Assembly (NCBI RefSeq): GCF_030503435.1
Contig: NZ_JAUKPO010000031.1
Span: 1 to 64,000, forward strand
DNA length: 64,000 bases
Source of the DNA: Rhodocytophaga aerolata
Lineage (GTDB): Bacteria; Bacteroidota; Bacteroidia; Cytophagales; 172606-1
Direction of reading: 5' to 3'
The position numbers and the translations under genes are program-made. Under the pieces are notes generated by a model. It saw only the letters and a program-made list of their open reading frames with translations. It had not been told where the DNA came from and searched no databases. Below are positions 5,891 through 58,400 of the stretch, in pieces (position 1 is the stretch's first letter; each line of letters starts with the position of its first letter).

Positions 5891-6153
5891 TGGCTTGATT
5901 CCCGTATTGAAACAAGGTAGAAGAGATGGAAACCGGCGGTAGAATGAGCCGGAAAATCTACCGGATTTTTAGAAACAGGTAAGGGCTTGTATCACTTACC
6001 GGCCCTTATCTTTATATATTTACATTAAACAATACTACCGGATTTGGCAGGAACAATCTTTTCAGACCCATAAGACCAGTATTATTATACGTTGTTTTGT
6101 AAGTGCTTCGCAGCGAGTTAAAAAACAGCAAAACAGGAAAGTTGACAAGAGCT

Positions 6154-7101
6154 ATGCAAATTGAGTTTTTTCAGGAAAAGACTATTCCCATTAATAAAGA
6201 CCAGACCATACTGGAAGCAGCACTGCAGGCAGGAATCCCTCACTTTCATGCATGCGGCGGCAAAGCAAAATGTTCTACCTGCCGGGTACTGATTCTGGAA
6301 GGCGAAGAATTTATAAGCCCGCCCAATAAAAGAGAAGCCCGCTTAACTTCGGTTCTCAAACTTCCCTCCACGGTCAGGCTGGCTTGCCAGGCAAAGCTGG
6401 AGGATGGGCCAGTGAAAGTAGAGCGGATGGTAAAATCAGCGTCGGAAATAGCCGCTTTTCTGAAACCCATTGAACAACGTCCCGGCCATTTTAAACTAAA
6501 GCCACTTGGAGAAGAAAAGCAGCTGGTGTTGTTTTTTCTTGATATCCGGGATTTTACGCCCTTTGTAGAGTCGTATCTGCCTTTTGATGTGATCTACCTG
6601 GTACGCAAACTGTTTGAGCTATTTTACACGGTACTAAGCAAGCACCAGGGGCAGATTCTTGAAACAGCAGGAGATGAGCTATATGCTATTTTTGGCGATG
6701 GTTATTCTCTGAAAAAAGCGGCCGATGCAGCTATAGCAGCAGGATTTGAAATTCTTGCCGAGTTGAAAACACTCAACCAAACCTATGGTAAGCTTTTTCT
6801 GAAAGAATTCGAGATTGGAATCGGAATACATTGCGGGAAGGTGATTGTAGGTGAGGTAAACTACGGAGGCTCTACAAGAAAAACTGCCATGGGACTGGCC
6901 GTAAATATTGCTTCCCGCATTCAGAACAGCACCAAAACGCTTAATAATTCGTTTGTGGTCTCTGAGGAGGTAATCCTGTTATCTTCCTACAAAAGCCACT
7001 CCGAAGTAAGAGAAATCAGACTAGCCGGAGTGAAAGCGCCCATTAAGGTGTATTCCATTGGGGAACCCTATACCAGGCAATCTATTCGGCTTAGTAGCTA
7101 G
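6154..7101 (+). CDS. [2Fe-2S] ferredoxin-class III nucleotide cyclase fusion
   Basis: This two-domain cytosolic protein is 315 aa from the ATG at 6154; an upstream in-frame GTG at 6103 would add 17 residues. Residues 1-90 are a plant-type ferredoxin with cluster ligands C34, C40, C43 and C78 (CX5CX2C...C). Residues about 120-310 are a class III adenylyl/guanylyl cyclase. The metal-binding Asp are D130 (FLDIRDFTPF) and D174 (AGDELYAIFGD). The substrate region has T244 at the adenine-selecting position (RKTAMG), and the transition-state residues are N251 and R255 (VNIASRI). All catalytic positions I can check are present, so an active, probably cAMP-forming enzyme gated by the redox state of the cluster is likely. 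Similar fusions are known in alphaproteobacteria. It sits between two HxlR-redox-enzyme modules. Confidence 0.87.
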   Translation: MQIEFFQEKTIPINKDQTILEAALQAGIPHFHACGGKAKCSTCRVLILEGEEFISPPNKREARLTSVLKLPSTVRLACQAKLEDGPVKVERMVKSASEIAAFLKPIEQRPGHFKLKPLGEEKQLVLFFLDIRDFTPFVESYLPFDVIYLVRKLFELFYTVLSKHQGQILETAGDELYAIFGDGYSLKKAADAAIAAGFEILAELKTLNQTYGKLFLKEFEIGIGIHCGKVIVGEVNYGGSTRKTAMGLAVNIASRIQNSTKTLNNSFVVSEEVILLSSYKSHSEVREIRLAGVKAPIKVYSIGEPYTRQSIRLSS

Positions 7102-29320: not shown

Positions 29321-30064
29321 ATGGCTTTTTCAGCTACGTTTAGCTTTCATGGCTCTCTAGCAGACTTTTTCCCAAAGAACAACCAAGAGCCTATTCCTTA
29401 TGTCTTTAAGGGTACGCCTTCCATAAAAGATGCTATAGAAACCATGGGCGTACCCCATGTAGAAGTAGATGTAATTCTGGTGAATAATAGCCCGGTAAAT
29501 TTTACATACCTTCTCTCGCCTAACGACCAAGTTCAGATTTATCCTAAAAATCATTTGCCTCCAAATCGAACATTTGTTCATCTGATTAAAAAATTCCCGG
29601 ATTTCCCACAGTTTATTCTGGATGTACACTTGGGTAAGCTTGCCCGGTTGCTACGTATGCTAGGATTTGATGCCCTGTATGAAAAGAATTATACAGATAC
29701 ACAAATTGCAGAAATAGCTTTTGCAGAAGTTCGTATTGTGCTTACCAGAGACATATTACTATTGAAAAGAAAATCAATAGAATGGGGATATTGGCTCCGC
29801 TCCAAACACCCGAAGGAACAGTTGCTAGAGGTGCTGCACTATTTTGAATTACAGCAGGCTTTTCGGCCGTTTTACAGGTGCATGGCTTGCAATGGATGTA
29901 TTCAGAGAGTGGAGAAAAAAGAAATTGTACATCTGCTGTTACCGGAAACCAACAGGTTTTTTGAAGAATTTTACCAATGCAGCCAATGCCATAACATTTA
30001 TTGGAAAGGGTCTCATTACGAAAAAATGGAAAGCTTTATTAAGCAATGTACATCTAACTCCTAA
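29321..30064 (+). CDS. Mut7-C RNase domain protein with ubiquitin-like N-terminus
   Basis: This 247-aa cytosolic protein has an N-terminal ubiquitin/ThiS-like Mut7-C ubiquitin domain (about 1-85) and a PIN-fold Mut7-C RNase domain (about 90-170). The latter is recognised by FILDVHLGKLARLLRMLGFD with its acidic D, VLTRDILLLKR and WGYWLRS. The C-terminus is a zinc ribbon with CxxC pairs (CMACNGC about 187-192, CSQCHNIYWKGSHY about 225-238). Related proteins are predicted ribonucleases of unknown target. It is a single gene just downstream of the PUL terminator, so probably unrelated to it. Confidence 0.88.
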   Translation: MAFSATFSFHGSLADFFPKNNQEPIPYVFKGTPSIKDAIETMGVPHVEVDVILVNNSPVNFTYLLSPNDQVQIYPKNHLPPNRTFVHLIKKFPDFPQFILDVHLGKLARLLRMLGFDALYEKNYTDTQIAEIAFAEVRIVLTRDILLLKRKSIEWGYWLRSKHPKEQLLEVLHYFELQQAFRPFYRCMACNGCIQRVEKKEIVHLLLPETNRFFEEFYQCSQCHNIYWKGSHYEKMESFIKQCTSNS

Positions 30065-35906: not shown

Positions 35907-36773
35907 ATGGAAACTAATTTCTTTGTAAAGTCTCATGGTCTGGGAAACGAATACATTGTATTTGATTCAGAGAACATCAATTTTTCTCTTACTTCAAAAA
36001 GTATCCAGCGAATCTGCAACGTAAATTTTGGGATAGGCTCCGATGGCCTGCTGCTGAAGGTTCCCAGTAACAACGCGGATTTTGGTTTGCAGATATACAA
36101 CCCCGATGGCAGCGAAGCCGAGAAAAGTGGAAATGGCTTGCGCATCTTCTGCAAATTTCTCTATGACTACCGGTTTGCTACCAGCAAAGTATTTACCGTT
36201 GAAACAAAGGGTGGACTGGTAAATGTAGAGATAGTCGAAGAAAAAAATGGCAAAGCACGTGTCATTAAAATAGATATGGGCAAGGCTGAATTTACCAGCC
36301 GGTTAATTCCGGTGTTGCATAGCCAGGAAGAATGTATAGATGAACCTCTGGAAATAGCTGATAAAATCTACCAAATTAACTGTGTATCGATGGGAAATCC
36401 GCATTGTGTAATTGTGAAGGAGCATCTGGATATAACAGAAATAAAAAAATATGGCCCGCTGCTTGAAAATAATCCTAAGTTTCCAAACCGGATAAATGTG
36501 CAGTTTGCCAGGCCCATAAACCGGGAAGAAGTAGAAGTATTAATCTGGGAAAGAGGTGCAGGATTTACCCTGGCTTCTGGCAGTTCTTCTTGTGCAGTAG
36601 CCGCTGTTATGGTGAAAAGGGGATTTACTGGCAAAAATGTAACTATTAAAATGCCTGGTGGCGAGCTAAAAATAGAGGTAGATGAACAATGGCACATCCG
36701 CATGACTGGCGAAGTCAGACAAATAGCAGAAGGTGTGTTGAGTCCGGAATTACTTGAAGATTTTATTCATTAA
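35907..36773 (+). CDS. DapF-fold protein lacking both catalytic cysteines
   Basis: This 288-aa two-lobed protein is of the diaminopimelate epimerase family. Conserved landmarks are HGLGNEYIVFD (10-20), IGSDGLL, NPDGSEAE, MGNPHCVI (162-169), NRINVQF and ERGAGFTLASG (215-225). In true DapF the two catalytic Cys lie in the CGNG and ACGTG motifs. Here they are S74 (KSGNG) and S224 (ASGSS), read directly from AGT and TCT codons. Epimerase activity by the two-thiol mechanism is therefore not expected. It could be a Ser-based isomerase, a different enzyme, or a binding protein. It stands alone, without lysine or peptidoglycan genes nearby. Automated tools would call it dapF. Confidence 0.85.
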   Translation: METNFFVKSHGLGNEYIVFDSENINFSLTSKSIQRICNVNFGIGSDGLLLKVPSNNADFGLQIYNPDGSEAEKSGNGLRIFCKFLYDYRFATSKVFTVETKGGLVNVEIVEEKNGKARVIKIDMGKAEFTSRLIPVLHSQEECIDEPLEIADKIYQINCVSMGNPHCVIVKEHLDITEIKKYGPLLENNPKFPNRINVQFARPINREEVEVLIWERGAGFTLASGSSSCAVAAVMVKRGFTGKNVTIKMPGGELKIEVDEQWHIRMTGEVRQIAEGVLSPELLEDFIH

Positions 36774-36820: not shown

Positions 36821-39800
36821 TTAAGAAAATATACCCAGGGAAGCTACATAGTCTTTGCTGCCGTCGTTTACCCAGGAATCCAGTTGGGCGGGGTCTTTCA
36901 TCTGCTGGCCGCGTAGCCTTGGTACAGCAATATACCCACACTGCACATCTGGCAAGCCCGACATATCACTCCATAGTTTTTCTACTTGAGCTACCGGATA
37001 AATATCTTCCTGCCCATGCCCCCAGCGGTATTTTACATCTTTAATTGTTACGTAAGTAGGCATGCGGTGAGCTACTTTTCTAACGGCTTTTGCCAGTAAT
37101 GCATCGTCGCCTTTCAGATCTTGCCGGCTTAAGCCAAAAAGTTGCAATAACTGATCAATAGAAATCCAGGTGGTCATAGAGTTGTAGTAGCGGAGTTTTA
37201 GTTCATCCTCTTCATTTGGTTGAGCTAACCCTTCCAGCAGGCGTACTTGTCCGTTTACCCGGGCCAGGCCACCGCCCCGGTCGTCTATATGGCGGGGCAC
37301 CACTTCAAAGGTAAGCACATTGCCAGATAACAGATGATGTCCCAAAGACTTAGGATCTATATCGGCTCCTAACGTATCAATATTATGCAACATGATAGTA
37401 TCTACCTCCGGGTTCTCCTCTAGTAAGGTAGCCAGTGTACCATTCCGTATCAGGTTAGATACTTCGTACCAGTGGCCTAAGGGTGAAAACCGTTGTCCGG
37501 CAATATTATCCACATAGTCAGTGCCTTCCCCTTTAGACTTCGCCCAGTTAATCATAGTCCGCCTTACCGCATCGCGTACTTTTTGTTTGTTTTCATCCAG
37601 GGTTTCCTGGGGCATTTCTTCCCACATAAACCGCAAATCTCTTTCCATAGGCACAAACCGTTGCCCGATGGATCTGCCTGGGGAGAGATATACTTTTCCC
37701 TGATAGCCAAAATTGGCACTCTCTTCCAATTTCTTCTGAATAGGTTTATGAGTGAGGTAACTGGTAGCCACAATATGTGGGATAGAGGCTCCATACTGTT
37801 CGGCAATCTTCCTAGTTTTAGCCAAGTGTATTTCCAGAAAATTGCGGTGTATGCCATCAATTTCTACAAAAGGATTCAGGGCTTTTATCACCCCTGCTCC
37901 TTTCGTCCAACGGCTACCCACCCCGGCAGCCAGGCTTAACACCGCCACTTTTCCACTCCGAATGGCTTGCTCGCCTGTTACCTTCACTCCTTCCAGAGAA
38001 GTAAGCTCCACCACATCTTTATTTTGTACATCTTCAATCGTTGTTTCTACTGGCAAACGGTTTCTGAATAAACCTATCCGGCCTCTTTGCAAGGCTTCCT
38101 TGATTTCTTCATGCTGAATATAGTCGAATCCGTTTTCCCTTTTAATCCGGTCTGCTTCTTCATCTTGTGCATGCCGGTTGGTTTGAGTGGATGGGTCGGA
38201 TACTTTAAACAAGTTGCTAATGATGGTGCGAAGTAAAGGATAGGCCTCATCATTTTTATCGCAGAGGGTAGTAAAATAGTCTATTTCAGCCCGGCGGATA
38301 TAAGAAATAGAAGCCGGATCTTTACGTACCAGGTCAGATACTTGCAACGCATAATATTGTGTAGGCATCAGTGCTTCACTACCTTCCAACAACCTGGCAA
38401 AAGTTCCGTTTGTATTAATCTGCCAGTTGTATACAACTGGTTCCATAGCAAAGGGCAAGGAAGCCGAAAGTTCAGCTTTGGTAGTTTTCAAAATAGCCAA
38501 TACTTTCTCCTGATATTCCTGGTACCGCTCCGGATTAACAAACATACCCATTCCCCCACCCGACATGCCTCCTAGCATAAGGAAGCCATAATAATCTGCC
38601 CCAAACTGCTGCTTGGCTTTGGCGATGATCCGTTCTGTAAAATGTGTGGATGCCCAGGGAATAATTGTTTTTATTGGTCCGCTAAAGTTCTGTGCTGTGT
38701 TGGAGGCCAGTTTTTGTATATCGCCTTCTTTCAAAGCCGTTAAAATATTGTCGAATATTTGATTGGTTTGTTTGCGGGCATTCGATTCTTTCTCTCCCCG
38801 TAATAGGTATTTTTCAGTAACCATTTCCAGAATAGGGCCTACATTGGAAGCCATTCCGCCATGCATCAGCACCAAAGAATGCGTCATTTTTTCGGCTATT
38901 TCCGGATGTACGGCCTCTCCTTGAAGAATCCGGTGCCTGGGCAGTAATGTACCCCGGCTAATGCCATATTCCGGGTCGCCTTCTCTGGCTAAGGTTCCTT
39001 CTATGGCTTTAATGCCAGGCCATACCCCACCGGAATCTTGCCAACCGCCGCCAGAGCCACCCAGCCATTCACCTAAGATTGCCCTGGAAGCTACTAAGCG
39101 CCGTTCACTTTCCTGAAGCCCGCCCTCAAACTGACTAGCCTGGCCAGTGGCCCGCATCAGCAAGGAGATAATAGAACCCAGTAAGTTGGTGGAAACTGCT
39201 AATCTGGAACCTTTGGGAATATCATTTACTCTGGTGACCAGTTCTATGCCCATTCCAGGAGCTACAATTCTGGCTAATATTTGGTCTAATGGTTGATTCG
39301 TTCCTTCGAAAGATGGGGGAATTAAGCCAGAGGCAATAATACCAGCTTTTACAAGGCTCAGGTAATCGTTTCCAAAATTATATAAATCGGCTAAGTCTGT
39401 AATATCTTTTGTTGCACCCAGGTCAATGCTGGTAATCCGCAAGATAGGTTCTGGAATTACCCGGACATATGTTTGTAAAGGCGGTTTAATGTCTTTGTCT
39501 CTCCCAAATACCCCCAGATCTATAGATACATTGATCACCCTGGCTCCTTCCGGATAGTCCATACCCAGGAAAAATATATCCGACCAGCCACTATGCGTTA
39601 AATCCATCCGCACAGGGGTGCGTTCTTCCAATACCGGATAGAATAAGGAATTTGCCTGCCGTTTTAGTAACCTGGGATGAATCTTTATTGGGTGGTCTTC
39701 CAGATGGCCTACCCGGAACATCCACTGGTTGCCTTTGCTAGACCGTACACTTTTACGCACCTGATCTGCCAGAATCTGGAAAGACAAATGATGATAACTC

Positions 39801-40153
39801 TCTGCCAGACCGCTGAACAATGCTGCATTAGGGCCTTGTTTCTGAATAGTTTCCAGAAAATACGTAATAGCTTGTTCAAACCGCCTGCCTAGTAAGTCTT
39901 CAAATCCTTCATACGGGATATGTCCGGTCTGGGGAATATCTTTCGCTTCTGAGAGAAAAAATCGGTAACCTGCATATAAAAACAAAAGAGCCCGTACCCG
40001 GTCGTATAAATTGTGGCTGGCTTTGCGAAAAGTATCCAGTTCCTGAAAAAGGGTAAATAATTCTTTAGAAGAAAACTGCCTGGATAACTCGTAAAAAGAA
40101 CGGTTTCTTTTGCCAGGATCAGCACTCGTTATGGTTTCTATAAAAACATTCAT
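36821..40153 (-). CDS. Fucokinase-like GHMP kinase-UDP-sugar pyrophosphorylase fusion
   Basis: This is a 1110-aa cytosolic fusion. Residues 1-165 are helical with no named domain. Residues about 175-570 are a GHMP kinase of the fucokinase/heptose-kinase branch. The opening is RTPVRMDLTHSGWSD (178-192), the phosphate-loop equivalent PKGSRLAVSTN (313-323, altered from PxGSGLGxSS), then GGSGGGWQDSGG (365-376) and LMLGGMSGGGMGMFV (525-539). Residues about 735-1090 are a UDPGP-type pyrophosphorylase: LAAGVGSRWTKGAGVIK (741-757) and the metal-site region LHNIDTLGADID. Such a protein could phosphorylate a sugar at C1 and transfer it to UTP. Bacteroides FKP has the opposite order and makes GDP-fucose. 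It is in an operon with the GalU-like gene 57 bp upstream. Substrate is unknown. Confidence 0.8.
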   Translation of the reverse strand: MNVFIETITSADPGKRNRSFYELSRQFSSKELFTLFQELDTFRKASHNLYDRVRALLFLYAGYRFFLSEAKDIPQTGHIPYEGFEDLLGRRFEQAITYFLETIQKQGPNAALFSGLAESYHHLSFQILADQVRKSVRSSKGNQWMFRVGHLEDHPIKIHPRLLKRQANSLFYPVLEERTPVRMDLTHSGWSDIFFLGMDYPEGARVINVSIDLGVFGRDKDIKPPLQTYVRVIPEPILRITSIDLGATKDITDLADLYNFGNDYLSLVKAGIIASGLIPPSFEGTNQPLDQILARIVAPGMGIELVTRVNDIPKGSRLAVSTNLLGSIISLLMRATGQASQFEGGLQESERRLVASRAILGEWLGGSGGGWQDSGGVWPGIKAIEGTLAREGDPEYGISRGTLLPRHRILQGEAVHPEIAEKMTHSLVLMHGGMASNVGPILEMVTEKYLLRGEKESNARKQTNQIFDNILTALKEGDIQKLASNTAQNFSGPIKTIIPWASTHFTERIIAKAKQQFGADYYGFLMLGGMSGGGMGMFVNPERYQEYQEKVLAILKTTKAELSASLPFAMEPVVYNWQINTNGTFARLLEGSEALMPTQYYALQVSDLVRKDPASISYIRRAEIDYFTTLCDKNDEAYPLLRTIISNLFKVSDPSTQTNRHAQDEEADRIKRENGFDYIQHEEIKEALQRGRIGLFRNRLPVETTIEDVQNKDVVELTSLEGVKVTGEQAIRSGKVAVLSLAAGVGSRWTKGAGVIKALNPFVEIDGIHRNFLEIHLAKTRKIAEQYGASIPHIVATSYLTHKPIQKKLEESANFGYQGKVYLSPGRSIGQRFVPMERDLRFMWEEMPQETLDENKQKVRDAVRRTMINWAKSKGEGTDYVDNIAGQRFSPLGHWYEVSNLIRNGTLATLLEENPEVDTIMLHNIDTLGADIDPKSLGHHLLSGNVLTFEVVPRHIDDRGGGLARVNGQVRLLEGLAQPNEEDELKLRYYNSMTTWISIDQLLQLFGLSRQDLKGDDALLAKAVRKVAHRMPTYVTIKDVKYRWGHGQEDIYPVAQVEKLWSDMSGLPDVQCGYIAVPRLRGQQMKDPAQLDSWVNDGSKDYVASLGIFS

Positions 40154-40210: not shown

Positions 40211-41167
40211 TTACCTTGACCGCAGGTTACGGGTAGCCTCTGCCAGACTTTCTACCAGGGTGGTCAGCGTCTGGTCATGTCCTTTGCCAGCCAGACCTAA
40301 TGCAATCTGCGCCTGTAGTAAACCATATTTTCTGCTTATATCGTAGCGGTTTCCTTTTACTTCCAGCGCCAGATATTTATCTTGTACAGACAATTGCTGT
40401 AGAGCTGGAGTCAGCAACACATTTTTGGTAGTTTGCACTTGTATAGATTTCTCCAGTAACTGGAAAATGAGGGGAGTTAATACGTGCATTCCGAAAAAGC
40501 AGAGATAATACCCTATCCGCAGGCCGGGCGTTTGTAATTCGAGTTCAGCCATACTCAGCGAAGGTTTTTCTATCAATTTTTCTATTTGATATACGCCGGG
40601 CATATTGGGCATATGTTTACCTGTAACCGTACCGTACTTTCCTATCAGGTGTTCAACCGTAGGGTTAACTGCCGAAACCGAACAATTTTCACTGATGGCC
40701 AGGTCAATTAATTGCTGGGCGCAACGTTTCCCTGCCAGATGCGATACATACAAATAATCTCCCAGCAGAAGCAGAAAAGGTTCATTATTAACAAACTCTC
40801 TGGCACAATATACGGCATGTCCGTAGCCTAAAGCTTCCTGCTGCTCGGCAAAATGCATGCGGCTCAGCAAATGATCTATTCTGTCTGCTTCTTCCTTTGC
40901 CCAATCTATACCTTTGTAGGACTGTAGTAAATTAGTATGCAACGATTGAAAAGCACTAATATATCTGGGCCCATCTCCCGGAGCACATACTACACAAATT
41001 TCTTCAATCCCACTGGCAAACGCTTCTTCAGCAATTATCTGAATCACTGGTTTATCTAATCCATCGGTATCCATTACAGGCAACATTGCCTTTTGTACAG
41101 TATCAGCCACCGGGTAGAGGCGTTCGCCTCTGGCAGCTGCAGTTATAACAGCTTTTCTTATTTTCAT
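40211..41167 (-). CDS. GalU-like nucleotidyltransferase
   Basis: This 318-aa protein is related to UTP-glucose-1-phosphate uridylyltransferases (GalU). The nucleotide loop is ITAAARGERLYPVADTVQKA, ending KAMLPV, which keeps G13 and R15 of GxGTR but has Ala and Glu at two usual Gly/Thr positions. LLLLGDYLY corresponds to the metal-binding GDD-like segment, and VEKP/IEKPS, GYYLCFFGMHVL and GNRYDIS match the sugar-binding half. It is the first gene of a two-gene minus-strand operon with the kinase-pyrophosphorylase fusion. Together they suggest UDP-sugar supply; the altered loop means activity should not be assumed. Confidence 0.82.
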   Translation of the reverse strand: MKIRKAVITAAARGERLYPVADTVQKAMLPVMDTDGLDKPVIQIIAEEAFASGIEEICVVCAPGDGPRYISAFQSLHTNLLQSYKGIDWAKEEADRIDHLLSRMHFAEQQEALGYGHAVYCAREFVNNEPFLLLLGDYLYVSHLAGKRCAQQLIDLAISENCSVSAVNPTVEHLIGKYGTVTGKHMPNMPGVYQIEKLIEKPSLSMAELELQTPGLRIGYYLCFFGMHVLTPLIFQLLEKSIQVQTTKNVLLTPALQQLSVQDKYLALEVKGNRYDISRKYGLLQAQIALGLAGKGHDQTLTTLVESLAEATRNLRSR

Positions 41168-46417: not shown

Positions 46418-49400
46418 CTAGCGTTTAATTTCTACCCATCCATTGAACTGGCCTTGAGCAGCTATATTTACTGTGTAAAAGTAGATACCCTCTGCATAGC
46501 CTTCGCCATTCCAATCGTTCTGGTAATTGTTGCTTGTATAGATAATTTTGCCCCAACGGTTGGAGATAGTGACAAATGTACCGGTTGGCAAGTTACGGAT
46601 GAAGAACGTATCATTTACTCCATCCCCATTTGGCGTAAAGATGTTCGGAATGGTAAACTTACTTTCTTTGATTTCTGTCTCATACTCTTTCACACAGCCA
46701 TTGGCATCCCGGATGTACACCACATATTTACCCATTGGCTGAGTGGTGATCACTGTATCTACCGGCAAAGTCTTGTCTTTTACCACTGCCCAGTTACGTC
46801 CATCTATGCTGACTTCATACGGTGCGTTTCCACCCCGGATATCCGTAATCTTAATCTCTCCGGTAGGCTCATCAGGCAACGAAAGCGTAGCAGTTACCTT
46901 AGCTGTTATCTTATTGTCGATGCGAACACGAACCGGAACTGTAGAGCAACCTGCATCATCCGCTACTACAATGGAATATTCGCCAGGAGCCAGATTCGAA
47001 GCCAAATAATTAGGACTTTGTGGGAATATATAGCCACTTACGAATGTTTTGCCGCCATCCAGACTTACTCTGTATGGAGAAGTACCCCCCTTGATATTCA
47101 ACACCCGTACATCAAAGCAATCTACTTTCTCCAGGTCATATGTTAAAGAATCCGGGCCTGCCACTGTAAACTCTGTTTGTTTCGGACAAAGATCATTCGC
47201 ACTTTCTCTAACATACATGGTGTATTTGCCAGCTTTCAGGTCTAAGAATACCGGAGACTCTTGGAACCGGTTGTTATCAATACTATAGAAATACTTCTTA
47301 GAGGCATCTGCCATCACCGCTGTTGCACTGCCATTGGACGCACCGCAGGTAGCCGCTGTTGTGGCTACACCCACAGGTAATCCACCAGAGTAAATATTAA
47401 TATTTCTTACCGCTGTCTGGCAACTTGCTCCGTATTTAATAATCAACTGATACATTTTAGGAGCCAGGTCATTGTAGGCAATGCTGTCATTCTGAACAAA
47501 CTGCCAGGTGCTGCCATTGTCTAAACTTACCTGGTAAGGCTTGTTACCACCTTTTATTCCATATACTACTATTCTGCCTTTATTGCCACCCTCACAACCA
47601 ATACTTACCGAATCTACTTTGTAGGTAATGGCCGTTGTACCAGGGATAGTAAATACATCTTTTACCACACAACCGGAAGGTGTATTATCCCGGATAAATA
47701 ATTCGTATTGTCCGGCTGTCAGTTTCTCGAACACTGGACTTCCCTGGAAGTTAGTTCCATCAATACTGAACAAGTAAGGTGCTGTACCGCCGCTTATGTT
47801 TGTAATTTCTACTTTACCTGTAGCTTCGCCACATGCAGAAGTAGCAATATTACCGATCTGGTAATTGATGCCTTCAGGTTGTGAAAGTTCATAACTAAAT
47901 GCATATATACAGCCGGAAGCATCTTTCACACGCACCGTGTATTTACCTGCCTTCAAAGAGGTGAATTTCGCTGAAGATTGATAGATAACACCATCCATGC
48001 TATATTCATAAGGTGCTATGCCATTGGCCACAGTATTCATGGTTAACTCACCATCAGTGCCACCTTTACACGTAGGCTGAACAATGGTTGGTATACCGAC
48101 AGTTACTGCATTTGGTGAAGCCAATGTTCTGGTATATTGTGCGACACAACCTTTACTATCTTTCACATAGATGGTATAGGTACCGTTGCCCATGCCCGAG
48201 AAGGTTTTACGATTCTCGAAGGTAATATTATCTAGACTATACAGATAATCAGCTGTTCCGCCACTTACAGTTCCGATAGTAATCTCACCATCCGTAGATG
48301 TACAAGTTGATGGATCTTTCTTTGTAACATCTGCTATAATCTGAGCTGCTTCTGTTACAATCACCGGGTAAGAGGCTGTACATCCATTTGTCTGATTTTT
48401 ATCACGTACATACAGCACATAGGTATTTGCAGCCAGATTGGTAAATAGTGGGGAAACCTGATAGGTTATTCCATCCATAGAGTATTCATACGTGCCTGAG
48501 CCGCCTGTTACATCAAAGATGCGGGCACTGCCGTCTTGCTTACCGCTGCAAGAAGCTGAGCTAACTACTTCTGCTTTCGCTGCAATAGCATTAGCCACTT
48601 TCAAGCTTTGCGTAAATGTAGCGGTACATCCATTTGCACTTCTTACGGTAACAGTATAGTCGCCACCGGAAAGAGCTGTAAATGTATTTTCTGTTTGGAA
48701 GCTTCCATTATTAAGCTTGTATGTAAACGGAGCCACACCGCCTGCAGTAACCTGTACTGAAATTTCTCCATCACTTACTGAGCAGGTCGAAGGATTCTTT
48801 GGTGTTAAAGCAATTACCATTTTTGCAGGTTCTGCAACTGTTACTTTGAACGTGTTGATACAAGTACTATTCTCGCTCTGATCTTTGATGTATACGGTGT
48901 AATCACCACCTTTCAATCCTGTAAACTCCTGGGTTCCGCTGAAGGTAGTTCCATCCAGAGAATACACGAATGTACCTGATCCGCCTTTTACATTATCAAT
49001 CTTGATTTTACCGTCGTTTTCTCCACTACAAGATACTGGAGCCGACTGTGTAACGGTTGCAGTAATTGGCTCAACCCCTCTAACCGTAATGTTTACACTA
49101 AACCGGCAATTATTTGCATCGCGGATTGTAGCCGGATATATACCTGGGTCCAGATTCGCATACATGGTGTTCGGTCCAAAGGTATTACCATCTACACTGA
49201 AGGCATAATCAGCTGTTCCACCGGATACATTGGTGAACTCAATACTTCCTTTATCATTACATGTTTTCGGCTCTGTTACTACAATAATTCCACTTACATT
49301 AAACTTGCTGGTAACAGTTGTAGTGAACGAAGCGGTACAAGACGTTTTATTTTTATCTCGGACAGTGATCGTATAAGTACCTGCTGCTAGATTTGCAAAG

Positions 49401-52400
49401 TTCGGACTATCCTGGAAAGTAACTCCGTCTATGCTGTAGGCATATCTTCCGCTTCCACCAGTAATCTCAATCAACTCTGCTGTACCATTTGCTTGTCCAT
49501 CGCATAATACCGGGGAGCTGATTATTCTGGCAGTTAAGTCACATGTAGGAACACATGCATTATTCACAGTAGCACTTGTAGTGAATATACATCCATTGGC
49601 TGCTACCACCCGTATTGAATATGTTTTAGGAGCTAACCCAGTAAACACACCGTTAGAGTTAAGTACACCATCTATAAAATACTGATATGGTCCAGCTGCA
49701 CCTGTAATAGTACCGACAGTGATAGTTCCATCGTTTGCACCACAAGCTGTTTCAGCGGTAGCATTCAAAGTAACTGCTGTTATACCACCTGCTACAGTTA
49801 AATCCTGTGTCAAGCTAATCTGACAACCTGCCCCATCCTTAATGAACACCGTGTAATTCCCTCCAGTCAACCCGGCAAACGTAGCTTCATTTTGATAGGT
49901 TGTTCCATCTAAACTATAGGTATATGGTGCTGTGTCACTCGTTACATTGACTGTAATGCTTCCGTTTGCTGTCGTACAGTTTGCCGGATTGCTTCCGTTA
50001 ATGGTTGCAGTAATAACAGGAATAGTTAAGGTAACTACAGGTAAGGTTACAGTACATCCATTCGCATCTTTCACCATTAGACTGTAAGCACCTTCGCCCA
50101 GGTTAGTAAAGCTATTGTTGCTAACAAACGTAGCTCCATTGTCAATAGAATAGGTAAGCGTACCTGAACCTCCATTGGCTGTTACTGTAATACTTCCACT
50201 ATTGCTGCTACACGTTGGATTTGTTCTGTCAGAAATACTGGCAGTAATCGCAGCCGGAGCAGTTATTATTACATCTGCTAAAGTGGTAATACAGTTGTTG
50301 GCATCTTTCACAGAAATGGTATAAGTACCGGCTGCTAAACCTGTCAATATACCGTTTCCTGCTGCGAACGAAGCACCATTTATTGCATATTGATATGGTG
50401 ATCTCCCGCCGTTTACTGTAATGGTAATCTCACCATTCGCATCGGTGCTGCAAGTAATCGGCTTAGATAATACTGCATTTGCAGTTAGAGGAGTTGCTCC
50501 TTTAATCTCTACGGTTGTAGTGAATGTGCATCCGTTGGCATCTTTAATTGTAGCAGGATACATACCTATCCGTAAGTTAGGGAACACATCTGTAGAACTA
50601 AAGCTTATACCATCTACACTGTAGGTATAGGGTGCAGTGCCACCAGCTACAGAACGGAACTCAATACTTCCTCTATCCTGGCAAGCTTCCGGATTATTAA
50701 CCACAATTACTCCACTTACATTAAATTGCTTACCTACCACAACCGGGAAAGAAGCGGTACAGGAAGGATTGTTTTTGTCTCTGACAAGAATGGTATACGT
50801 ACCTGCCGCCAGACTACTAAAATTCGGACTATTTTGATAGGTAACCCCACTATTTACACTGTACTCATACGTGCCGCTGCCCCCGCTTACATTTACTAAA
50901 ATAGCGGTACCATTGTTTACTCCATCGCAGAGCACAGGTGTAGAGTAAGCTTCCGCTGTTAAATTGCATACAGGTGTGCAAGCATTAACGGTGGCTGAAA
51001 GGGTATATGAGCAACCATCATTTGATACTACCTGAATTGTATACGTACTTGGCGCAAGCCTTGAGAATACTTCGTTACCGGCCCCATCTGGATTAATTAC
51101 TCCATCTATAAAATATTGGAATGGAGCCTGGCCACCGTTGACAGTAACTATTATGGTACCATCATTAGCTCCGCAGGTAATTTCTGCTGTAGAAGATGCC
51201 GTGGCTATAAATCCACTTCCACTGTTCAATGTCCAATTCTTGGTGATGAAACAGGTTGTATTATTTTTATCTCTTATAGTGATAGTATAATCTCCGTCTG
51301 GCAGACCTGGGAAGGTAGTTTCATCCTGGTAAGTTGTACCATCTATACTGAATTCAAATGTTCCACTGCCTCCGCTAATATTACGTATGGTAATGGTGCC
51401 ATCTGTAGTACTGCAAGCGGTTGGATTACTTCCGGTGATATCAGCCATGATTGCATCTGGCTGGGTGATGGTTACAGCAGGCAGCACAGCGGTACAGCCA
51501 TTGGCATCTTTCACAGTAATTGTATTGTAGATACCTGCTTGTAATCCGTTAAAGGTATTGCTTGCTGCGAATATGACACCATCTAAAGAATAGGTATAGT
51601 TTGACGTTCCGCCTGTTGCTCCTACTGTGATTGACCCATTCGTATTCCCATTGCAACCTGTTACATCGGCCTTAGCTATTAAGCTGATTGCTAACGCTTG
51701 TGGTTGGGAAATAGCAAGATTCAAGCTAGTGCTACAAGCATTATCCGCTACATCTCTGACATAGATGGTGTAACTGCCAGCTGCTAAGCCTGTGAAACTA
51801 GCCACCGCCTGATAAGCTACGCCATCCAAGCTGTATTCATAGCTGCCACTGCCCCCACTCACCTGCACACTTACCCTTCCATCACTTGCCCCATGACAAG
51901 TAACATCCTGTTGGCTCTGCACACTTGCTGTCAAACTGCAAGGACAAGATGAAGGAATGGTCACGGCCTCACTGGTATAGCTACAGCCATTGGAAGCTTC
52001 GATACGGATTCTGTATGACTGTTTTCCGTTTAGTCCGGTAAACAAGTTGCTGTTGATGCCTATGGGATTGGCTACAAACACGCCATTGCCTGCTAAGTCA
52101 ATGTAGAAGTTGTAAGGAGCACTGCCCCCACTTACCGAGCTGACCATGATCATGCCATCATTGTTTCCACAGGCACTCTCAGCCATCGGCGTTACTCTGG
52201 CAGTTAGACCTCCGGCACTTGTCAGCGTCTGTGATTGAGAGATCTGACAACCGGCAGCATCGCGGATGTAGACGGTGTAGCTGCCATCAGATAGGTTAGC
52301 AAAGCTATTATCTGTCGAGAAAGTGGTTCCATCTAAGCTGTATTGATAGGGAGCACTGCCGCCATTGACACTGCTGACAGTAATAGAACCATCCTGGGCA

Positions 52401-55400
52401 GTACACCCGGTAGGAGCTACTCCCTCTATTACCGCTGTCAAGGCTGCAGGTTCTGTAATCGTAGCTGTTACTGTTACTTCACAATTCGCTGCATCTCTGA
52501 TAATAAATGTGTAATCTCCGGCTGCTAAACCAGCAAAGGTGCTAGTACTTACAAAAGTAACTCCATCCGTAGAATAAGTATACGGAGCTGTGCCTCCGGT
52601 AGTAGTTAATACGATGCTTCCATTGTCGTCACCAGCGCAAAACACATTATTTACTTGTGCTGTAGCGGCTAATGTACAGGTTGGAGTACATCCGGTTCCA
52701 ACGGTAACATTGCTTAAAATAAATTCACAACTATTGGCATCTACTACTTTGATAGTATAAACTGCAGGAATCAGACCTGAGAATACACTTTCACCTGCAC
52801 CAGCCGGATTAGGATTTCCATTAATATAATATGTATATCCTGTAGAACCAGAAGCAGTAATGGTAATGCTACCATCTGCCAGGTTACAAGCAGTTTCATC
52901 CGAAACTGTTGCTGTAGCAACTACTCCATCCAGAGCTATCAGGTTCCTTGGCTGACTTGTTACACATCCTTTAGCATCTTTAATATAGACTACATATGAT
53001 CCGGCAGATAAGCCTATAAAGAATTGGGAAGGCTGATAATTGGTACCATCCAGGCTGTAACTATAGGGAGCGGTACCACCAGTCACATTGCTAATAGTAA
53101 ACATGCCATCGTTTGCCTCACAACTAGAGGGATTGATAGCATTAATAGTAGCCGTGATGGTTGATGAAGAAGAAATTGTAACACCGCTTAACACAGCTAT
53201 ACAAGCACCGGCATCTTTTACAGTAACAGTATACGTACCAGCAGCCAGATTAGCGAAAGTAGCACTATTAATGAAGGTAGTTCCATCTATTGAGTATGTG
53301 TAACTACCAGAGCCTCCATTTGCTGATACAGTAATGGAACCATCCTTTCCATTTCCGCAAGAAATATCTGTTTTAGAAGCCAGGCTAATGGCAAGAGGCG
53401 CTGGCTGTGTTATTTGCTGAGGAGCCAGTGTAGCTGTACATCCATTGGCATCTTTTACGATAATGGTATAGGTTCCGGCAGGAAGATTGTTGAATACACC
53501 TGTGCCGGAAACAAAATCAACACCATTTACTGAATAGGTATATGGACTGGTACCGCCACTAACGTTTGTGGTTATCTCTCCATTAGACTCCCCATTGCAA
53601 CCCGTCACATTTGTTTTTGCAGTTAAACTAATAACTAACAAGGCAGGCTCATTTACCACTACACCAACTGTGGTAATACAAGTTGTAGAAATATCTCTTA
53701 TAGTAACGGTATAATTCCTACTTGCAAGGTCTGTAAACGTAGCACTATTCTGGAAAGTAGTACCATCCAGACTATACTCATAATTTCCACTTCCGCCACT
53801 TACATTATCAACCGTGATGCTGCCATCTGTAGCTCCATTACAAGTAACATTTAACGTTGAAGCGGTAGCTGTAAATCCTGGGACACTTGTCAAATTTGCT
53901 GGTAGAGTAATAGTACAACCCCTAGCGTCTTTTATGTACACTGTATAACTGCCATTGGCTATGCCTAGGAAAGTTGTTGTCGTTTGAAAAGTAGTATTAT
54001 CCAGACTATAGCTATAGGGTGCAGTTCCACCATTTACCGTAGCAATTGTGATAGAGCCATCATTGTTCGAACAAGTAGTAGGATTGCTGGTTGATAAAGT
54101 TGCCGTTAACGCTTGTGGTTGGGAAATAGCAAGATTCAAGCTAGTGCTACAAGCATTATCCGCTACATCTCTGACATAGATGGTGTAACTGCCAGCTGCT
54201 AAGCCTGTGAAACTAGCCACCGCCTGATAAGCTACGCCATCCAAGCTGTATTCATAGCTGCCACTGCCCCCACTCACCTGCACACTTACCCTTCCATCAC
54301 TTGCCCCATGACAAGTAACATCCTGTTGGCTCTGCACACTTGCTGTCAAACTGCAAGGACAAGATGAAGGAATGGTCACGGCCTCACTGGTATAGCTACA
54401 GCCATTGGAAGCTTCGATACGGATTCTGTATGACTGTTTTCCGTTTAGTCCGGTAAACAAGTTGCTGTTGATGCCTATGGGATTGGCTACAAACACGCCA
54501 TTGCCTGCTAAGTCAATGTAGAAGTTGTAAGGAGCACTGCCCCCACTTACCGAGCTGACCATGATCATGCCATCATTGTTTCCACAGGCACTCTCAGCCA
54601 TCGGCGTTACTCTGGCAGTTAGACCTCCGGCACTTGTCAGCGTCTGTGATTGAGAGATCTGACAACCGGCAGCATCGCGGATGTAGACGGTGTAGCTGCC
54701 ATCAGATAGGTTAGCAAAGCTATTATCTGTCGAGAAAGTGGTTCCATCTAAGCTGTATTGATAGGGAGCACTGCCGCCATTGACACTGCTGACAGTAATA
54801 GAACCATCCTGGGCAGTACACCCGGTAGGAGCTACTCCCTCTATTACCGCTGTTAACGTTGTTGAAGTTAATGAAACAGTTGGTAACGAAATAGTACAGT
54901 TATTGGCATCTTGTACCTGAATTGTATAGTCTCCGGCTGCTAAATTAGAGAAAGTGCCAGTACCTGATGTAAAGCTGCCTCCATTAATGGAATATTGATA
55001 TGGGCTTACCCCGCCATTAACTGCTACTATTATATTTCCTGTGTTACCTGCTGAACAACCTGGGTCAGTTTTCGATGTTAAGCTGATAGTAAGTAAAGTA
55101 GGTTGCAAAATTGATTGAGCTGGTAAAACAGCGGTACAGCCATTGGCATCTTTGACAGTTATTTTATCATAGGTACCTGCAGCCATGTTACTAAAAATAT
55201 TGTTAGAGACAAAAGTATTTCCATCTATGGAATAGGTGTACGGAGAGGTACCACCGGAACCTGCTACAGAAATACTACCACTGTTTTCTCCGGTGCATTT
55301 TACGTCTGTTTTACTTATCAGATTAATTATTACCGAACTTGGTGCTGTCAGGGTAGTAGCTGGCAATGTATACGTACAAGAATTAGCATCTTTTACAGTA

Positions 55401-58400
55401 ATAGTATAAGTACCAGCCGCCAGATTAGAGAAGGTAGCATTATTGACAAAGCTAGTGCCATCTAGCGAATAGGTATAGCTGCCAGAACCACCACTAGCCG
55501 ATACCGTGATTGATCCATTAGTTATACCACATCCAGTAGGATTTGTACTCGTAGCTGTTGCGGTTATTGTAGCCGGCGCAACTATGCTTACGGGAATAGT
55601 AACTGTACAAGATGATGTATTTTTGTCTACTACTGTAACTGTATAATTTCCGGCTGAAAGACTGGCAAATACTGGTGAATCTTGGAAAGTACTTCCATCT
55701 ACACTATACGCATATGAACCTGAACCGCCAGAAACATTAGTTATTGTGATAGTACCATCGGTATTATTATTGCAGGTTGGATCGGTTTTGTCAGCAGTTG
55801 CTGTTAACACACCCGGCGTAGTAGTAATAGTTACAGGTATCTGTGCTGTACAATTATTGGCATCTCTTACCTGTATGGTATGATTGCCTGATGAGAGGTT
55901 ACTGAATGTAGCATTTCCACTGAAAGACCCACCATCAATAGCATACAAATAAGCCGCCGTACCACCAGAGGCAACCACCGTAACACTACCTGAATTTGTA
56001 CCTGTGCAAGCATTAATATCAGTTTGTGAAGATATGGCCAGGGTTAAGGCAGCAGGCTCGGTAATAGTTACTACAGGCAGGGCAACTGTACAATTGTTAG
56101 CGTCATTTATTACGATGGTATAATTACCAGCTGATAAATTATTGATTGTACCTGTAAATGCAGCCGATGCCCCTCCATTAATAGTGTAGGTATAGGGTGC
56201 ATTTCCACCAGATACAGATAAGCCGATGCTTCCATCTGTTCCAGCTGCACAAGTCACCTGGTTAGTTGAAGCAACAGCAGCAATAATGGCAGAAGGCTGC
56301 GATACAACCACTCCTGCTACAGCAGTTGTACAGCCGTTGGCATCTCTTACAGATACGGTATATGTACCTGCTGTTAATCCAGAAAATACATTACTTGTGC
56401 TGTAACTACCATTGTTTATGGCATATTCATAAGGTGCAGTACCTCCGGTACCATTAATAGTAATACTTCCATTATTTCCATTATTGCAAGTAGGATCTGT
56501 TTGAGCAGATACACTTACGGATAATACTGCAGGATCAGTTAATGTTTGTGGGGCTAGTTCAGCTGTACAGCCGTTAGCATCTCTCACCCGGATGGTGTAC
56601 GTACCTGCAGACAAAGTATTGAATACCTCACTGCTGCCGAAACTTCCTCCGTTAATGGAATACTCATAGGTTGCTGTACCGCCAGAAGCTACTACAGTAA
56701 GGCTACCTGTATTTTGACCGTTACAAGTAGGATCTGTTTTAGCAACCAGAGTAAGTAGTAGCTGAGCAGGTTCTGTAATTGTTTGAGTAGCTAAAGCAGT
56801 AGTACAACCTTTAGAATCTTGTACTTCTATAGTATAGTTACCGGCTGGCAAATTAGAGAACGTACTACTATTAGTAAAACTTCCTCCGTTAATAGAATAT
56901 GTATAATCCGCTGTACCACCTGATGCAGCCACTGAAATACTACCATTGTTTCCATCTTTACAAGATACATCCGTTTTGGTAAGTAAGCTTATGGTTAGAG
57001 CCGTTGGCTGGGCAAGAGTGATAGTAGGTAAAGTAGCGAAACACCCTTTGCTGTCTCTTACCTGAATGCTGTAGTCGCCAGCCACTAAACCGCTGAAACT
57101 TGCACTGGCTACAAAAGCTGCTCCATTGATGGAATATTCGTAACCTGGTGTGCCGCCACTAGCTGCTACCACAATCTCGCCTGTGCTGTCTCCAAAACAA
57201 GCTTCTATATCTTTCTTGGATACAAGTGCAATGGCTACTTGGGTAGGTTGGGTAATAGTCACCGGAGCTAAACTAGCACTGCAGCCATTGGCATCGCGCA
57301 CGACAATAGTATAGTTACCGGCCGCTAGGTTGCTGAAAGTGCCTGTTCCGGCAGCAAAAGCTCCCCCATTCACTGAATAGGTGTAGCCGGCTGTACCGCC
57401 TGCAGCTGTGACCACAATCTCCCCTGTGCTGTCTCCAAAGCAAGTTGTTATATCTGTTTGGGAAGTTAAGGCAATAGTTAATAAAGCAGGCTCCGTTATA
57501 GTTACTGTAGATAAAGTTACCTGGCAATCTTTACTGTCCTTTACGCGTATGGTATAGTCACCAGCAGGTAAGTTGTTGAAAATATTCGTTGTAACAAAGG
57601 CCCCACCATTAATAGAATAGGTATATGTAGCTGTGCCACCCGAGGCTGCTACGGTAATACTGCCTGTATTTTCGCCATTACAGGTTATGTTAGTTTGAGA
57701 ACTGATAGAAGCTGTCAATGCAGCAGGCTGGGTAATTGTTACTGGTGCTAAGCTTACCTCGCATCCTTTGCTATCTCTTACTGCAACAGTATATGTTCCG
57801 GCGGTTAACCCGGTAAATGAACCTGAATTAGCTACAAAAGCTGCTCCATTAATGGAATATTCATAGCCAGGGGTACCGCCACTAGCAGTTACTACAATTT
57901 CTCCGGTAGCCTCTCCATTACAATTCTCAATATTTGACGTAGAAACAAGACTAATTGCAATTTGGTCAGGTTGTGTAAGTGTGACTGTTGGAAGTGTAGC
58001 CGTACATCCATTAGCATCTCTCACCACAATCGTATAATTCCCTGCAAGCAAACTGGCAAAACTACCTGTTCCGGCAGCAAAAGCTCCGCCATTAATGGAA
58101 TATTCATAGCCTGGTGTGCCTCCGGTTACATCTGTTATAATTTGTCCGGTAGCCTCACCAAAACATCCAGTAATTTGTGTTGTGCTGGTAAGGGTTATAG
58201 CTAATATATCAGGTTGGGTTAATGTTATAGTAGGCAGGCTAACCTGACAATTTTTATTGTCTCTAACTATAATTGTATAGTCACCAGCTGTTAACCCATT
58301 GAAACTACCTGTTCCGGCTACAAAAGTGCCGCCATTGATGGAATATTCATAGCCGGGTGTTCCGCCAGTAGTAGTTAGAGTTATGCTTCCGTTTGTATTT

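Follow-up and report, generated by a model that had tools for sequence, protein, structure and literature searches.

Diaminopimelate (DAP) epimerase, DapF, is a standard example of cofactor-free catalysis in which a thiol/thiolate pair deprotonates an alpha carbon whose pKa is very high. In a 64,000-nucleotide stretch of the Rhodocytophaga aerolata genome (contig NZ_JAUKPO010000031.1, positions 1 to 64,000; hereafter the window), one gene encodes a DapF-type protein with serine at the sites of both catalytic cysteines. This raises the question of whether such a protein can still be the epimerase of its organism or has taken on another role. The features concerned are as follows.

35907..36773, forward strand: coding sequence of the Ser/Ser DapF-type protein, 288 amino acids plus stop (open reading frame call; TIGR00652 and PF01678 matches)
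36123..36128, forward strand: codons of K73 and S74, S74 being the first catalytic Cys site of DapF (codon reading and alignment)
36576..36578, forward strand: codon of S224 (TCT), the second catalytic Cys site of DapF (codon reading and alignment)
36585..36587, forward strand: codon of S227, Ser in 84/84 of the Ser/Ser set and Gly in 45/46 of ordinary DapF (alignment)

The reading frame has no internal stops. S74 is encoded by AGT (context ...EAEKSGNGLRIF...) and S224 by TCT (context WERGAGFTLASGSSSC), and in an alignment with H. influenzae DapF the two residues correspond to Cys73 and Cys217, the positions that carry serine in the PDB mutant entries 2q9h (C73S) and 2q9j (C217S). The motifs MGNPHCV, NRINVQF and ERGAGFTLAS are all found in the protein. 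In profile searches it scores 244.7 bits with TIGR00652 (DapF; cut-off 114.65) and 182.9 bits with PF01678 (cut-off 34.7), and its only matches are DAP_epimerase and two DapF models, with no sequence match to the proline racemase/hydroxyproline enzyme family. The frame, the codons and the alignment confirm what the initial annotation had read here, namely serine at both catalytic cysteine sites with the landmarks of the fold kept. As far as can be told the protein is DapF-like, yet at the two cysteines that define DapF (EC 5.1.1.7) it has Ser74 and Ser224. The GC content of the gene (0.41 vs 0.42 in the window) gives no signal of transfer.

To collect relatives, four Ser/Ser proteins were aligned, and patterns taken from the alignment, containing neither catalytic serine, were scanned against named genomes. 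The best 80 of 568 relatives were used, and all 80 loci have serine at both sites. Adding the window gene and the genes of three genomes from its order (G015, G033 and G048) brings the total to 84 distinct Ser/Ser proteins, which were compared with 46 Cys/Cys proteins mostly from the window's own order. In the alignment the positions of S74 and S224 are serine in 84/84 and cysteine in 46/46, the two sets having been sorted on these very residues. Among the 84 sequences, S74 is encoded by AGY in 62 and TCN in 22, S224 by TCN in 82 and AGY in 2, and S227 by TCN in 48 and AGY in 36; on the tree (65 rows) AGY/TCN switches occurred at least three times at S74, at least twice at S224 and at least seven times at S227. 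Because such a switch takes two base changes, passing through Cys or Thr if made stepwise, they show that serine itself is under selection, and the proposal that the protein is maintained rather than decayed is thus upheld by the full-length frame and by serines that persist in every sequence despite the codon changes. Serine at both sites in 84 distinct sequences also rules out chance or sequencing error. A sequencing or assembly artefact at both codons would be practically inconceivable, and the identical residues in independent records refute it.

A tree was made with both motif stretches removed and with near-copies (at least 80% identity) dropped first; it contains 107 sequences, of which 65 are Ser/Ser including the window, 41 are Cys/Cys and one is an ungrouped Streptomyces row. 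In this tree, obtained by a short search with no bootstrap, a single branch separates Ser/Ser from Cys/Cys (SH-aLRT 95), and the ungrouped Streptomyces row groups on the Ser/Ser side. The window gene falls in a mostly Bacteroidota set of 20 rows (SH-aLRT 100), and going by record titles the Ser/Ser rows span 19 phyla, most of the records being MAGs whose labels are possibly wrong in places. The Ser/Ser type is an old, widespread family that shares one design, and its patchy distribution looks as if shaped by gene transfer. It is rare in the window's own phylum (2 of 395 sampled genomes): a search with a Ser/Ser model gave 468 bits for R. aerolata (G000), 447 for G178 and 247 for the next match, the 28 other loci read from the higher-scoring matches are all Cys/Cys, and 22 of the 395 genomes gave no match. 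As a separate observation, a dapF-annotated gene on a plasmid of Streptomyces sp. NBC_01216 (NZ_CP108679.1) has Ser at both catalytic sites but Met and Gly where the window protein has K73 and S227; it is set among oxidoreductase, 2OG-Fe dioxygenase, aminotransferase and ornithine-cyclodeaminase-family genes and is possibly a secondary-metabolism relative.

The genome of R. aerolata (9.07 Mb in 202 contigs, rated 100% complete) holds one PF01678 gene, the window gene, and the search for a second, Cys/Cys DapF that the initial annotation had called for found none in the 202 contigs. That annotation had also named a sole DapF with epimerase activity as the finding that would speak against its idea of a new role; the first half of this, a sole DapF, is what the genome shows. 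The only DapF match is likewise the Ser/Ser gene in each of the three genomes of the same order, one of which (G015) is a single contig rated 98% complete. Among 45 other Ser/Ser genomes, drawn from the 80 named loci (best 80 of 568 relatives) and searched with TIGR00652, the single match is the Ser/Ser gene itself in 36, including the isolates Tangfeifania diversioriginum (G063) and Apibacter mensalis (G064); these genomes come without a completeness figure and many are MAGs, and some absences may be gaps. In the remaining nine there are more matches: the second copy is Cys/Cys in eight, the second match of G099 is partial, and G102 has one further match. Where a Cys/Cys DapF coexists, the Ser/Ser protein may have a different role.

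Three other enzymes of DAP metabolism were also searched for. DAP dehydrogenase (TIGR01921) has no match in R. aerolata or in the three genomes of its order, and it exceeds the cut-off in 1 of the 45 named-locus genomes (G062, one of the 36 with a single DapF match); two Nitrospirota genomes, G087 and G088, bear near full-length DAP dehydrogenase-like genes that score 114 and 112 bits, below the cut-off of 180.6. LysA, whose substrate is meso-DAP, is found in R. aerolata and in all three genomes of the order; it is above cut-off in R. aerolata and in 36 of 50 genomes searched and has no match in three of the 50 (G074, G077 and G087). For LL-DAP aminotransferase, the one model tried in R. aerolata gave 128 bits, below its cut-off.

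A comparison with a sister genome of the genus (G001) indicates what may have happened at this locus. G001 has one DapF, which is Cys/Cys and 24% identical to the window protein, and the LysA proteins of the two genomes share 71% identity. The G001 dapF is flanked on one side by rimP-nusA-infB and on the other by an oxidoreductase, pyrD and ftsK, gene names that we presume from their sequences. In R. aerolata the two flanks are found on different contigs, neither of them at a contig end: the first on contig 136 (461,350 bases) around base 423,000, the second on contig 169 (372,872 bases) around base 90,000. The Cys/Cys dapF and the two small genes adjoining it are absent from both stretches. 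The loss of the Cys/Cys gene and the presence of the Ser/Ser gene make up the pattern expected if the one had replaced the other. An assembly gap concealing a Cys dapF at the old site was considered and rejected, as both flanks lie inside contigs that lack dapF there; a relocated copy in an unassembled gap is possible. Around the window gene, synteny with 14 kb of G001 is confined to the two downstream genes (about 36821-40153 and 40214-41167), and with 13 kb of a further genome, G002, to the first of them. The protein encoded at 36821-40153 (1110 amino acids) has a UDPGP domain and a weak fucokinase/fucose-1-phosphate guanylyltransferase match (69 bits, cut-off 721); it is 85% identical in G001 and found in G002, with no match in G003 and G005.

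Gene neighbours were surveyed at 83 loci, the 80 named ones (best 80 of 568) plus three, the query gene itself being missed by the ORF caller in 7. A DapL-like aminotransferase cluster occurs at 17 of the 83 loci and LysA at 11, with at least one of the two at 20; at the other 63 neither is present within the stretch examined, which is short in some. The aminotransferase is at most 250 bp away on the opposite strand in seven loci, and LysA is at most 170 bp away on the same strand in ten; other such neighbours are kilobases distant. Two of three aminotransferases scored exceed the curated LL-DAP aminotransferase cut-off (that of locus L074 exceeds none), and both LysA neighbours scored are above theirs, one barely (298.3 vs 297.9). 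In G178, the other Ser/Ser genome of the phylum sample, the Ser/Ser gene precedes an LL-DAP aminotransferase gene above cut-off by 94 bp, both being on the same strand. Like neighbours accompany ordinary Cys/Cys dapF in three records, from Monoglobus, Ilyobacter and Parabacteroides. The genes that recur around the Ser/Ser gene at the Nitrospira and Dadabacteria loci are for the most part different ones. The expectation that the Ser/Ser type forms its own group in a tree, with conserved neighbours, is borne out by the supported branch and, in part of the group, by these recurrences.

In the window no DAP-pathway gene stands beside the Ser/Ser gene; the neighbours there, an NT5C nucleotidase, a 3-keto-disaccharide hydrolase family protein and nucleotidyltransferases, are uninformative on DAP. 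Elsewhere the window encodes a 2Fe-2S ferredoxin domain (Fer2) fused with an adenylate/guanylate cyclase catalytic domain (6103-7101), a fusion of a ubiquitin-like Ub-Mut7C domain with a Mut7-C RNase domain (29321-30064), and a 4458-amino-acid open reading frame with many similar repeats as judged by eye, probably a giant surface protein (46418-59794). In 11 Nitrospirota loci (L098-L104, L107, L108, L118 and L128) a uvrC-like gene comes after the Ser/Ser gene, as the next gene in nine and as the second in two, and the one member scored is UvrC; in 10 of those loci a gene that looks glyoxalase-like by eye lies ahead of it.

Besides the cysteines, the residues in contact with DAP in Anabaena DapF are Asn13, Asn66, Gly76, Asn77, Asn164, Asn197, Glu215, Arg216, Gly225 and Thr226, according to the available part of PMC12039745. 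The counterparts of nine of these (N14, N65, G75, N76, N164, N197, E215, R216 and G225) are invariant in 84/84 Ser/Ser sequences. At the tenth position, which is Thr226 in Anabaena, 77 sequences have Ser and 7 have Thr. Among the 46 Cys/Cys sequences the N164 position varies (Ser in 32, Asn in 11), and the other eight of these nine are invariant. The kept contacts include those to the far (distal) end of DAP. Other positions have changed together with the serines: P66, A71, E72, Q199, W214 and S227 are found in 84/84 Ser/Ser sequences, where ordinary DapF mostly differs, K73 is Lys in 83/84 vs Met in 38/46, and I80 is kept in 83/84 vs Cys in 45/46. This set looks like a re-tuned active site, and we infer from the sequences that the co-changed residues may assist catalysis. 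An AlphaFold2 model built with 20 Ser/Ser sequences (pLDDT 94.9), which supersedes a mediocre earlier one from 4 sequences (pLDDT 77.5), places S74 directly before helix 75-87 and S224 before helix 225-237; the catalytic cysteines of the DapF-like fold are likewise described as located just ahead of helices (in part of PMC11602996). In a Foldseek search with the model, the best matches are DapF structures: DapF or O-ureidoserine racemase accounts for all of the first 26, TM scores for the top four PDB entries run from 0.83 to 0.91 (e.g., 9mro 0.83 and 5ha4 0.91), and proline racemase/hydroxyproline-type entries among the 50 matches listed show 11-17% identity.

It is thus probable, judged from sequence, that the window protein is the organism's diaminopimelate epimerase and turns LL-DAP into meso-DAP by a non-thiol proton transfer. 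DAP epimerase function as such has a good probability, being supported by the sole homologue found, the neighbours, the contact residues and the fold; that a serine is the actual proton carrier is an evenly balanced suggestion. An epimerase with altered chemistry is the simplest reading because LL-DAP aminotransferase and LysA adjoin the gene in relatives and the DAP contacts are intact, and a new function is less likely than this. In the mechanism, for which we infer the substrate, the activity and the proton-accepting atom, LL-DAP would be bound as in DapF and turned into meso-DAP for peptidoglycan and lysine, the alpha proton being moved by a non-thiol pair in a two-sided proton transfer. 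Ser74 and Ser224, ahead of the two central helices, would most likely be the opposed acid/base groups or hold them, and the pair may be tuned by the co-changed K73, E72, S227 and Q199. Whether the family as a whole consists of old, widespread cofactor-independent epimerases without a thiol, in which the serine pair and the co-evolved Lys73/Ser227 move the alpha proton and which are the sole source of meso-DAP in many bacteria, seems to us to stand in the balance. The acidity of serine is far below that of cysteine, which counts against an epimerase of this kind. So does the large drop in turnover that each single Cys-to-Ser change brings about in histidine racemase, a related enzyme (reported in part of PMC11602996). 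A partial precedent exists in the active 4-hydroxyproline 2-epimerase with Ser93/Cys255, in which one cysteine is kept, and its authors remark that the acid/base residues can differ between enzymes that share a function (excerpts of PMC4113996).

The loss of both thiols could also mean that the protein binds DAP or a DAP-like amino acid and carries out another reaction, such as elimination, hydration or isomerisation. In line with this, the proline racemase superfamily contains a dehydratase with a Ser90/Thr256 pair (PMC4113996, in part), 9 of the 45 genomes have another DapF match besides the Ser/Ser gene, and the Streptomyces plasmid relative lies amid oxidoreductase, aminotransferase and ornithine-cyclodeaminase-family genes. 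A new reaction, however, would leave cells lacking another route with no meso-DAP. In 36 of the 45 genomes TIGR00652 matches nothing but the Ser/Ser gene; in some relatives that gene adjoins an LL-DAP aminotransferase or lysA gene, and the encoded protein keeps the contacts to the distal end of DAP. We therefore regard a changed function as unlikely, and the initial annotation's suggestion of another substrate or reaction, or of a ligand-binding role, is not supported by the neighbours in relatives or by the intact contacts.

It is also improbable that the protein is an inactive scaffold or regulator, with DAP or another protein as its binding partner and meso-DAP supplied by an unrelated enzyme. 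Both catalytic thiols are indeed absent, E. coli DapF forms complexes with RppH (structures 6d13 and 6vck), and a PLP-type DapF2 has been proposed, mainly for Staphylococcus (as given in part of PMC9026213). Among 34 genomes searched, however, the alanine-racemase C domain occurs once in R. aerolata, as in its sister G001, and this argues there against a PLP-type substitute like DapF2; an extra racemase of the alanine-racemase type was accordingly rejected for R. aerolata, and it is possible in G015 and G048, with three and two such domains. DAP dehydrogenase is unmatched as well, and a dead site should tolerate other small residues, whereas serine stays serine across the codon switches. Very improbable, finally, is a cell that needs no epimerase, with LL-DAP in its peptidoglycan, lysine taken up and the protein a leftover: nothing speaks directly for it beyond the three genomes with no LysA match, and LysA above cut-off in most genomes and the strong conservation of the Ser/Ser protein speak against it.

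Returning to the reading as an epimerase with altered chemistry, the Ser/Ser type resembles DapF (EC 5.1.1.7, TIGR00652, PF01678) in length, in its predicted two-domain fold, in nine of ten DAP contacts outside the catalytic pair, in being the sole homologue in most genomes examined and in the LL-DAP aminotransferase/lysA neighbours of part of its relatives; it differs in serine for both catalytic cysteines and in the changed P66, A71, E72, K73, I80, Q199 and S227. The H. influenzae C73S and C217S proteins have serine at the same aligned sites in a similar fold, but they are laboratory single mutants, unlike a natural double-serine type with co-changed positions. The histidine racemases HisR and CntK share the DapF-like fold and independence of a cofactor but are Cys/Cys and 14-17% identical to the window protein in structure alignments. 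To PDB entry 4k7g, presumably the Ser90/Thr256 dehydratase, the window protein is 16-17% identical; that enzyme removes water from hydroxyproline. It is alike in having a thiol at neither site and a related fold (PMC4113996, in part). The Ser93/Cys255 4-hydroxyproline 2-epimerase has a related fold, the same two-base logic and Ser at one site, and its function was recognised through gene neighbours (same source), but it has another substrate and is distant in sequence. We found no published description of a Ser/Ser DapF in the open-access full-text literature.

These results illustrate that annotation by profile score conceals a complete change of the catalytic pair. If the serines do carry out the DapF step, a thiol would not be required for deprotonation of the alpha carbon, and the Ser/Ser type would offer an immediate point of comparison for the tuning of weak bases by proteins. 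It would also represent a class of DapF whose response to thiol-directed inhibitors may differ.
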